DNA of 32,737 nucleotides. Origin: Oscillospiraceae bacterium. Lineage in GTDB: Bacteria > Bacillota > Clostridia > Oscillospirales > UBA929. Below the pieces are notes generated by a model. The model worked only from the letters and a program-made list of their open reading frames with translations. It was not told the origin of the DNA and made no database searches. Made by a program: the position numbers and the translations under genes. Below, one piece after another: positions 24,163 to 26,502 of this stretch (positions within the stretch are counted from its first letter, which is position 1; each line of letters opens with the position of its first letter). The stretch spans positions 1 through 32,737 of the forward strand of contig JAISVI010000133.1 in assembly GCA_031271665.1 (NCBI GenBank), written 5' to 3'.

Positions 24163-25080
24163 TTGGATTATATAAAAGTCACCGTCCCGGCCTTGCCGGA
24201 GACGCTTGACGAGGTTGGGGCGGCGCTGTGCGCGCTGGGTCTGGACTCTTTCCAGACAGAGGACGAGCGCGACGTGCTTGCGCAAAGCCCGCACTGGGAA
24301 ATGACGGACGAGGCGCTTCTCGCCCACTATAAGGGCGCGTGCCGCGTTATCGTCTATCTGCCGCGGGAAGACGCGAAAGCGCTTGCGGCGCTTCGCGCCC
24401 TTTTCCCGGACGCGGCAACCGAAACGGTGCGTGAGGAGGACTGGGCGGAGAACTGGAAGCAGTTCTATACGCCCATAGAAATCGGCCGCCTTGTAATCCA
24501 CCCGGAATGGCTTCCCCTTGGGGACTACGCGGGCCGCGCGGTGTACCTCTCCAACCCCGGCGTAAGCTTCGGCACCGGGATTCACGCCTCAACGCGCCTG
24601 TGCCTTGAAATTCTGGCGGCGGCGGACGTATCCGGCGCGCGCGTGCTTGACGTGGGCTGCGGAAGCGGGATATTGGGGCTGTGCGCACTGCTTTTGGGCG
24701 CGCGTGAGGTTTCGGCGGTTGACATTGACCCGCTTGCCGCCGGCATCGCGCTTAAAACGGCGCGGCTGAACGGGCTGTCGGATCGCGTCAGGACGTTCAC
24801 GGGCGACTTCGCGAATGACGCGCGCCTGCGCGGGGATGTCGGCGCGGGCTTTGACCTTATATTCTCCAATATCGTGGCGGATATTATTTTGGCGCTTATG
24901 CCGCATATCCCGCCCCTTCTGAATCCGGGCGGGATATGGATAGTTTCCGGTATTATAGACACCCGCGCGCCGGAAGTCGCCCGCGCCGCCAGTGACGCCG
25001 GGCTTGCCGCCGAGCGGCGCGAAAAGGACGGCTGGGTCGCGTTTAAATTTAAAAAGGGGAAAGCAACGCCCGCAATCTAA
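24163..25080 (+). CDS. prmA: Ribosomal protein L11 methyltransferase
   Basis: FGTGIHASTRLCLEIL, VLDVGCGSGILGLCALLLGA, DIDPLA, FSNIVADIILALMPHIPPLLNPGGIWIVSGI; TTG start after AAGGGGG. Confidence 0.94.
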   Translation: MDYIKVTVPALPETLDEVGAALCALGLDSFQTEDERDVLAQSPHWEMTDEALLAHYKGACRVIVYLPREDAKALAALRALFPDAATETVREEDWAENWKQFYTPIEIGRLVIHPEWLPLGDYAGRAVYLSNPGVSFGTGIHASTRLCLEILAAADVSGARVLDVGCGSGILGLCALLLGAREVSAVDIDPLAAGIALKTARLNGLSDRVRTFTGDFANDARLRGDVGAGFDLIFSNIVADIILALMPHIPPLLNPGGIWIVSGIIDTRAPEVARAASDAGLAAERREKDGWVAFKFKKGKATPAI

Positions 25081-25250
25081 GAACCTGTATTCATAGATAA
25101 GCGACTCCGATACGGCGAGGGATTCTTTCGTCGGGCGAGGCAAATTTTCGCGGGCATAATTTGTTTATGGCAAGAAAATTTAACGAAGCGCGGCGGAATA
25201 ATGCCCGCCGTAGCGGTGGCGCGTTCCGTGAATACAGGTTCTTAGATTGC
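25072..25250. mobile_element. 179-bp MITE-like element with perfect 22-bp terminal inverted repeats
   Basis: GCAATCTAAGAACCTGTATTCA (25072-25093) / TGAATACAGGTTCTTAGATTGC (25229-25250). No coding content; internal GCGGGCATAAT...ATAATGCCCGC and AAATTTTC...GAAAATTT complementarity. Confidence 0.8.
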
Positions 25251-25256
25251 AAAATA

Positions 25257-25331
25257 AGAACCTGTTCCCAAAGGCGCAAGCGCCAACGCGGCGGCAAAAC
25301 CCCATCCGCGAACAGACGGCAAACAGGCTCT
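25257..25331. repeat. 75-bp element with 10-bp near-perfect terminal inverted repeats
   Basis: AGAACCTGTT (25257-25266) / AACAGGCTCT (25322-25331), 1 mismatch; ends resemble those at 18403-18484 and 25072-25250. Confidence 0.75.
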
Positions 25332-26502
25332 AAAGCTCCGCCATGTATGCCTGTGTAAGGCCGGTGCGGTCCGAGGCGAATATCACCTTGCGGTCGGTCC
25401 AGCCGAAGGTGGGGTGGCAGTGGGTGTACGAATAGCTCCACGACGTTCCGTGCCGCGCCAGAACCATGCGTTTGGGCGTGTCGCCGGAGATATCCAGAAG
25501 GACGATGTCGTCAAGCTCGTCGCCCACAAGAAGTTTTTCGTCGGTGGTCGCGTGGTAGTGGTTGCAGTAGAAGGGCATGTCAATAAGCCTTAGTATATTG
25601 CCCGCTTCGTCGGCAAAGCCGACAAGCGGCTTTTTTTCGCCCCCGTGCGCCGCGGTGACTATGGCCTGCGCGCGCGAGGAGGTTATGGTGCCGTCATGCC
25701 CCGCGCCGCGGTTATCAAAGAAGATGCGCCCGCCGCGCGTCCAGAACTCATGCCCCACGCAGTCCTGCGCGTCCTGGCGGTAACAGGGGATGATGCCGCC
25801 CGTATTTACGTTAAGAAGCCATATGCGCTGGGACACAAGATGCCACGGCCCCTCGTGGCAGTACATGGCGATTTCGGGGTTTGTCGGCGAGAACTGGAAA
25901 TGCCCGCCGTGGCAGGACTCTATGCGCACGGTGCGGGAATTAAGCGTCGCGAGGTCTATAACGTCGATGCGGCATGTTTTTATGCGGTAGAACCGCGCCA
26001 TAAACGTGCCGTAGTTGGGCTGGTTCTCCGCAATCGGGACGGGCGGTCGTTCGTTCATAAGTATGCCCACAAGCGTGCGGTCGCTGTTCATTGAAACCCG
26101 CCCGCCGGAAAACCCCTCGGGTATGGTGTAGATAATCTTCCGATTGCCCGTCTTTGTATCGTGCAGAAAAAGCTCGCGGTCTATGACGTAAAGCAGGAAG
26201 CGCCCGTCCCTTGTCTTGGTCGCGCTTTTAAGGGTATGCGGCGGCGTGACCCCGGTCAGGCGGTCGATCTCGCCCGAGCGCAGATCCATATGGAATATGT
26301 TGACGGCGGGGTGAGTATCCCTGCTTGAAAGGAAGTAAATCTCCTCGTCGCCGTCAATAAAAGAGTTCTCGGTGAAATAGAAGTGATAGTTAAGGGTGTC
26401 CTCGCCGGTAAGCCGCCAAAGCTTATAATCCGACTGTCCGTCAGAAATAAGCGTTTTTTCGGAAGGATACTGTCTTTGAAGCGCGCCGATATCACCGATC
26501 AT
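25330..26502 (-). CDS. Oligogalacturonate lyase family protein (PL22-like)
   Basis: FTENSFIDGDEEIYFLSSRD, CHEGPWHLVSQRIWLLN, VGHEFWTRGGRIFFDNRG, CNHYHATTDEKLLVGDE, YTHCHPTFGWTDRKVIFASDRTG. Confidence 0.88.
   Translation of the reverse strand: MIGDIGALQRQYPSEKTLISDGQSDYKLWRLTGEDTLNYHFYFTENSFIDGDEEIYFLSSRDTHPAVNIFHMDLRSGEIDRLTGVTPPHTLKSATKTRDGRFLLYVIDRELFLHDTKTGNRKIIYTIPEGFSGGRVSMNSDRTLVGILMNERPPVPIAENQPNYGTFMARFYRIKTCRIDVIDLATLNSRTVRIESCHGGHFQFSPTNPEIAMYCHEGPWHLVSQRIWLLNVNTGGIIPCYRQDAQDCVGHEFWTRGGRIFFDNRGAGHDGTITSSRAQAIVTAAHGGEKKPLVGFADEAGNILRLIDMPFYCNHYHATTDEKLLVGDELDDIVLLDISGDTPKRMVLARHGTSWSYSYTHCHPTFGWTDRKVIFASDRTGLTQAYMAEL

Follow-up and report, generated by a model that had tools for sequence, protein, structure and literature searches.

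In an Oscillospiraceae contig, a perfect inverted repeat lies at the 3' end of a prmA-like gene, and this locus raises the question of what the sequence is, how it came to lie there and whether its interior is anything more than filler. All positions given here are those of the window, that is, the whole 32,737-nucleotide stretch of DNA that was analysed. The two arms, 25072-25093 and 25229-25250, are 22 nt each and 100% complementary. A sequence-only reading had described the stretch that they bound as a MITE-like element of 179 bp with inner long-range complementarity, a non-coding interior and the prmA TAA in its left end. The arms (22 of 22 complementary), the position of the stop codon and the absence of any encoded protein (none was found in 25072-25250 by inspection of the ORFs) all held, as did the inner complementarity: the 179 bp form an imperfect palindrome throughout, which matched its own reverse complement at 73% (E=1.3e-16). 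The boundaries had to be refined. Homologous copies set the mobile unit at 25081-25241 (161 bp), GAACCTGTATTCA...TGAATACAGGTTC, with a TNA triplet on each side, and the outer 6 nt of each arm were found to be flank. The element, which sits between prmA and a convergent gene, meets the size and end criteria for a MITE, with 167 bp including the TNA triplets, perfect 13-bp terminal inverted repeats (TIRs) and no ORF of its own. The features are as follows.

24163-25080, plus strand: prmA-like ORF with its stop codon in the left TNA/TIR; orthologues in relatives.
25072-25077, unstranded: left flank GCAATC, complementary to the right flank and outside the mobile unit.
25078-25244, plus strand (the RNA-favoured, family-consensus orientation): MITE including both TNA triplets (TAA ... 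TTA), from homologous copies and TNA duplications; 147 bits with covariance model R1.
25078-25080, unstranded: left TNA target triplet TAA, which is also the prmA stop codon.
25081-25093, plus strand: left TIR, GAACCTGTATTCA, from ends common to an IS5-family IS (GAACCCGTATTCA).
25108-25215, plus strand: 108-nt conserved RNA-like hairpin core, in all likelihood common to Correia, BOX and other MITEs.
25138-25140, plus strand: AGG, 5' side of a near-invariant internal loop (57-58 of 59 sequences).
25183-25185, plus strand: ACG, 3' side of the same loop (54-58 of 59 sequences).
25229-25241, minus strand: right TIR, from arm complementarity and homologous copies.
25242-25244, unstranded: right TNA target triplet TTA, which differs from the left triplet.
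25245-25250, unstranded: right flank GATTGC, the reverse complement of GCAATC.
25255-25333, minus strand: probable second MITE-like relic of 79 bp, which has a TAA at either side and lies just beyond the MITE.

A scan of genome contigs for GAACCTGTATTCA-N126..156-TGAATACAGGTTC returned at least 120 stretches from Oscillospiraceae, other Clostridia, several Streptococcus species, Psychrobacter, a Neisseriaceae MAG and Defluviitaleaceae; four further matches were found among viral contigs. The usual copy length was 165-169 bp, counting one TNA per side. At 91 of 127 distinct sites the triplet was identical on both sides (42 TTA, 42 TAA, 4 TCA and 3 TGA). A single copy with no matching TIRs elsewhere would have refuted the MITE-like reading; many copies were found, and that reading is supported by these TIR-bounded copies, by their target duplications and by the IS5-family element with a nearly identical TIR that is described below. 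A divergent TIR-bounded copy (L086) was also seen in a MAG labelled Nitrososphaerota, where it may represent mis-binned bacterial DNA.

No exact target duplication is left in the window copy, in which the triplets are TAA and TTA. When flanks were paired at random, 0.1% of the pairings had a complementary run of six or more nucleotides, and of the 127 sites only the window copy had one; the outer GCAATC/GATTGC is flanking sequence whose complementarity is peculiar to this copy, an oddity and not part of the element. Insertion into palindromes in general, which these hexamers had suggested, was rejected on the same count. The copy at L131:130-296 also has partly complementary flanks (GATATCAC.../...GTGATATC) and the symmetric TAA/TTA seen in the window, possibly a record of template switching between the arms.

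The relic at 25255-25333 has imperfect ends, GAACCTGTTCCC and GAGCCTGTTTGCC, which agree at 11 of 18 positions and resemble those of a sister subfamily in the same genome, and it gave a weak minus-strand match to R1 (17.7 bits, E=0.003). The segment 25078-25333 is likely to hold two MITE insertions side by side, the second of them a relic.

That the sequence might instead be a conserved 3' UTR element or terminator of prmA, the other outcome that would have refuted the sequence-only reading, is all but excluded, and is refuted as an explanation of its origin. In its favour, the element is adjacent to the stop codon of prmA, and the genes on its two sides converge. Against it, no element was found at prmA of relatives, the other copies lie beside genes in any orientation, and there is no T-run after the hairpin. 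Empty sites could not be compared at prmA, since PrmA of the relatives is at most 57% identical and no prmA was detected in the same-genus genome. A DNA search with the whole element found nothing in 57 relatives, since divergence was too high, and profile models were therefore needed. Copies were co-directional with flanking genes in 46 of 97 cases. The orientation bias relative to host genes that would be expected of read-through RNA was accordingly not found, which makes it unlikely that selection depends on one local context, and a role tied to host-gene read-through is not favoured by the placement of the copies.

A candidate mobiliser was identified in the Oscillospiraceae MAG Gx481_bin36 (G394), which also carries the MITEs. 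It is an IS of 818 bp with ends TAAGAACCCGTATTCA ... TGAATACGGGTTCTAA and the target duplication TAA. Its ORFA matched PF13340 (E=3.5e-20); ORFB is frame-shifted, and its DDE match was weak (0.006, below the cut-off). A 3-bp TNA target is typical of the IS1031 group of the IS5 family, and we take the IS with GAACCYGTATTCA ends to belong, probably, to that group. The criterion for an IS5-family, IS1031-like element was met by the PF13340 ORFA, the two frames and the 3-bp TNA duplication, with the reservation about the ORFB DDE match, and the requirement that a MITE have ends in common with an autonomous element was met through this IS, with GAACCCGTATTCA, in G394. The IS and the MITE are alike in their terminal 13 bp and TNA target and are co-resident in one genome, whereas the IS is 818 bp long with transposase ORFs and, by eye, the interiors are unlike beyond the ends. 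In the genome of the window itself, contig C16 begins inside the ORF MRKEEKRERTYPSDLTDTQWEEIK, behind the end TAAGAACCCGTATTCA; this is an IS fragment at a contig end, and no complete transposase was seen in that genome. A candidate TIR with two mismatches on contig C75 of the same genome was dropped, as it had no partner end. Another genome (G024) has a degenerate IS whose ends are similar and whose target duplication is TTA. The mobiliser of the MITE is most likely an IS5-family element, with transposition in trans being inferred and not demonstrated. The guess that a TA-targeting transposase acts in trans was thus nearly right: the target is the 3-bp TNA, and the action in trans remains an inference.

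Folding of the element as RNA, a check proposed in the sequence-only reading, gave a strongly stable hairpin on the plus strand (-97 kcal/mol for the 179 bp, z=-12.4), and none of 200 shuffles folded equally well; the minus strand reached only -74.9. The orientation assigned by homology alone was that of the better-folding strand in 118 of 125 copies, and in 99 of the 101 with a clear orientation. Across 59 aligned copies 54 pairs were predicted, 38 of which showed changes on both sides. Paired cells in this alignment amounted to 93.9%, compared to 39-47% in controls with slid partners, and there were 423 double-change (compensated) cells compared to 112 in shuffles. Between 53 pairs of recent sister copies, in which the polarity of substitutions is unrooted, one-sided changes from Watson-Crick pairs yielded G-U 142 times and A-C 57 times (p=1.5e-9), an excess that was maintained for G-C origins (81:28) and for A-U origins (61:29). 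An unpaired AGG and an unpaired ACG face each other in the hairpin and are kept in 54-58 of the 59 sequences. These results showed that the interior is a strand-specific, RNA-like hairpin with compensatory changes and a strand-specific G-U bias; its function as RNA is inferred, as there are no expression data. No promoter was recognised in the window element.

Two rival explanations bear on this result. In the first, the sequence is an ordinary IS5-derived MITE in which the palindrome is kept at the DNA level only, through cruciform formation, transposase binding or template-switch repair, and the RNA has no role. The anatomy of the TIRs and target duplications would by itself account for the element, and template switching in quasi-palindromes also produces double changes, with which the TAA/TTA and GCAATC/GATTGC symmetry would fit. 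However, maintenance of a palindrome in DNA gives no reason to prefer G-U over A-C; G-T and A-C should be treated alike, and the observed excess therefore counts against this explanation. Furthermore, one strand is favoured across phyla, and the unpaired AGG/ACG is nearly invariant and survives complete replacement of the TIRs. This rival is considered unlikely. In the second, the hairpin is formed by the favoured strand in single-stranded DNA while the element is transposed or replicated, in the manner of integron attC sites or IS200/IS605 ends, and the tolerance of G-T reflects DNA. A single-stranded DNA hairpin would yield an equal strand asymmetry, and there is no expression evidence for RNA. 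However, the 3-bp TNA duplications and the ends of an IS5-type DDE transposase point to double-stranded DNA transposition, and RNase III processes the hairpins of Correia RNA (PMC2649163). Selection on a single strand of DNA, and not on RNA, is very unlikely but cannot be excluded, and the RNA-like hairpin remains the preferred reading.

Within the window's own genome (G000), covariance model R1 detected four further copies, all of 166 bp and with the TIR TAAGAGCCTGTTTAC or close to it (L199-L202, at C133:7223-7388, C147:8463-8628, C100:14731-14896 and C105:21531-21696). They keep the core CAAGGA ... GACGCGGC and constitute a sister subfamily. R1 matched 101 of 295 Oscillospirales genomes, many of the matches spanning only model positions 30-137; the order of this set was assigned from its inclusion of Acutalibacter sp. 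1XD8-33 (G339), taxa of genome groups being taken from the named record at the group centre. The core motif CAAGG...CGCAG...CAAG...AACGC recurred between TIRs or terminal sequences of over a dozen unrelated kinds. It is probably the core, and not the ends, that persists over long times, with different transposons supplying its ends. No family in Rfam 15 exceeded its gathering threshold along the element, whether in the window copy or in those members that were tested, and the matches at E<=10 were rejected as chance only.

Some copies were found in unusual company. In G019, G078 and G061 (L231, L234, L237 and L244) the core hairpin has a second hairpin next to it, core-like but weaker and on the other strand, and copies of these composite repeats are often at contig ends. 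Cores with quite different terminal repeats were seen in G085 (L235/L236; AGGCAGTTCC...GGACTGCCT) and in G156 (L240), where a TPP riboswitch starts about 24 bp after the core.

A second model, R2, was built from the 108-nt core of 39 Oscillospirales and Clostridia copies only, with the window and L199 among its training rows. Its sole match in the window was the core at 25108-25215 (98.9 bits, the window being one of the 39 rows). In this match, in one orientation and with the motif given above, the window element meets the criterion proposed for membership of a superfamily, and it remained well separated (z=14, realigned pair-preserving shuffles) when scored with a profile from which it had been left out. 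E-values from the covariance models are rough, since calibration was short.

R2 matched 33 of 61 Neisseriaceae genomes, with Correia elements at E 1e-7 to 1e-9; 80 of 98 Streptococcus genomes, with BOX elements at about 1e-7; and, at E<=1e-4, 79 of 299 genomes of Pseudomonadota. In 124 kb of Neisseria prophage DNA nothing matched below E=1 except two full Correia elements, both in register. Neisseriaceae loci such as L324, L326, L329, L330, L332, L334 and L335 have the published features of Correia elements, with 108 bp, AAATTTAAA-type arms, TCAGGACAA and GTACCGG-type ends (PMC2649163). In Streptococcus, one genome gave 37 matches, of which all that were inspected are BOX-like, and the identity of BOX rests on the BOX neighbouring L295, which agrees with the BOXA1R primer at 20 of 22 positions; the primer site lies on the 3' arm of the core. 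An exact boxA pattern found no BOX in viral contigs.

The window element is itself neither a Correia nor a BOX element. The Correia repeat (CREE/NEMIS) is a MITE of about 108 bp with a directional core, TCAGGACAA ... GTACGG, that forms an RNA hairpin and falls in the same R2 register. In contrast, its TIR, TATAGTGGATTAA, is unrelated to GAACCTGTATTCA, its length is 104-108 or 153-157 bp compared to 167 bp, its outer stem is shorter, and its long form has an IHF-site insert. BOX (boxA-boxC) of S. pneumoniae and relatives has a core, GCCGCAGG.TGTACTTGAGTACGGCAAGG...GACG, that aligns with the window core; its ends, ACTCAAT...GAAGAGTAT, are unrelated, it has optional boxB modules, and the window element lacks both the boxA/boxC ends and the TATACTC-type termini. 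Correia elements have been described as present only in Neisseria, with an unknown mobiliser (PMC2649163), and BOX HMMs run on N. meningitidis found nothing (PMC3049150). No paper linking BOX with Correia was found in the open-licence literature; an earlier report elsewhere cannot be excluded.

Convergence of hairpin repeats, without common descent, is the obvious rival to homology: all of these elements are imperfect palindromes of similar size with unrelated ends. Homology was separated from mere hairpin shape by shuffling each element with its base pairs kept and realigning every shuffle, using profiles that left out the window and kept L199. An initial pair-preserving test without realignment overstated significance and was superseded. 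When all 108 nt were scored, Correia elements and the streptococcal, Psychrobacter and proteobacterial copies were strongly above the shuffle null; BOX was only modestly above it (8-17 of 1000), which is a point for convergence. Over the central 61 nt, in contrast, BOX reached z 6.5-8.6 and CREE (Correia) 5.9-8.2, and BOX scored with a Correia-only profile reached 7.4-8.9, with 0 of 5000 realigned shuffles as good in every case. Opposite strands and ERIC gave no signal in this test. ERIC/RU-1, like the window element a palindromic intergenic MITE forming an RNA hairpin, was rejected as a further member, since it also had no R1 or R2 match at E<=10. Given in addition the many covariance-model matches at E 1e-7 to 1e-9, convergence is improbable, and the hairpin core of the window element is likely to be homologous to those of BOX, Correia and many other bacterial MITEs. 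A conserved RNA core common to BOX and Correia formed no part of the sequence-only reading.

At thirteen Streptococcus loci (L282, L285, L287-L289, L291, L293, L295, L296 and L298-L301) the core hairpin was observed inside the variable stem of an FMN riboswitch aptamer, on the strand opposite to the riboswitch; the outer stems at this one position are of at least two unrelated kinds, and at some of these loci the riboswitch was recognised by flanking sequence only. This hairpin appears to be a domesticated or repeatedly replaced MITE. Two further streptococcal core hairpins (L290 and L297) lie in another common context, GACAG.GAGCCCCATCTGA...CTCTTTTCTTATAAC, without an Rfam match.

The best explanation of the locus, and a likely one, is a 161-bp MITE that an IS5-family transposase, acting in trans, brought to the stop codon of prmA and that carries an RNA core homologous to those of BOX and Correia; mobility in trans and the RNA role are inferred. 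In the proposed mechanism the transposase would insert the MITE at the TNA of the prmA stop codon, and transcription would arise by read-through from prmA, no promoter having been recognised. The plus-strand RNA would fold into a single long hairpin, and RNase III, or some other protein that binds double strands, would bind or cut it, by analogy with Correia RNA, which is cut by RNase III in Neisseria (PMC2649163). The hairpin would insulate the convergent genes at the transcript level, separating or stabilising the neighbouring messages, and the AGG/ACG internal loop would serve as a recognition site for an unidentified ligand.

A bolder reading, for and against which the case seems to us evenly balanced, is that what selection really acts on is an old, structured RNA core common to a pan-bacterial MITE superfamily that includes BOX, Correia and the window element. 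The core would have a common RNA role in all hosts, for example through RNase III or another conserved protein at the AGG/ACG loop, and would have been re-fitted with the ends of many transposons, by analogy with SINEs, which carry structured RNA heads.

For decades, work on BOX and work on Correia have run apart, each being treated as a lineage-specific repeat whose mobiliser is unknown. The copies inside the streptococcal FMN riboswitch indicate that the core can live in an important regulatory RNA, and the position of the BOX-PCR primers on its 3' arm might help to explain the fingerprinting of such different bacteria. If an RNA core is indeed common to several phyla, the covariance model would annotate thousands of unrecognised repeats, the RNase III processing of Correia RNA would be tied to a general mechanism, and several questions would reduce to a single testable one, namely what binds the core.
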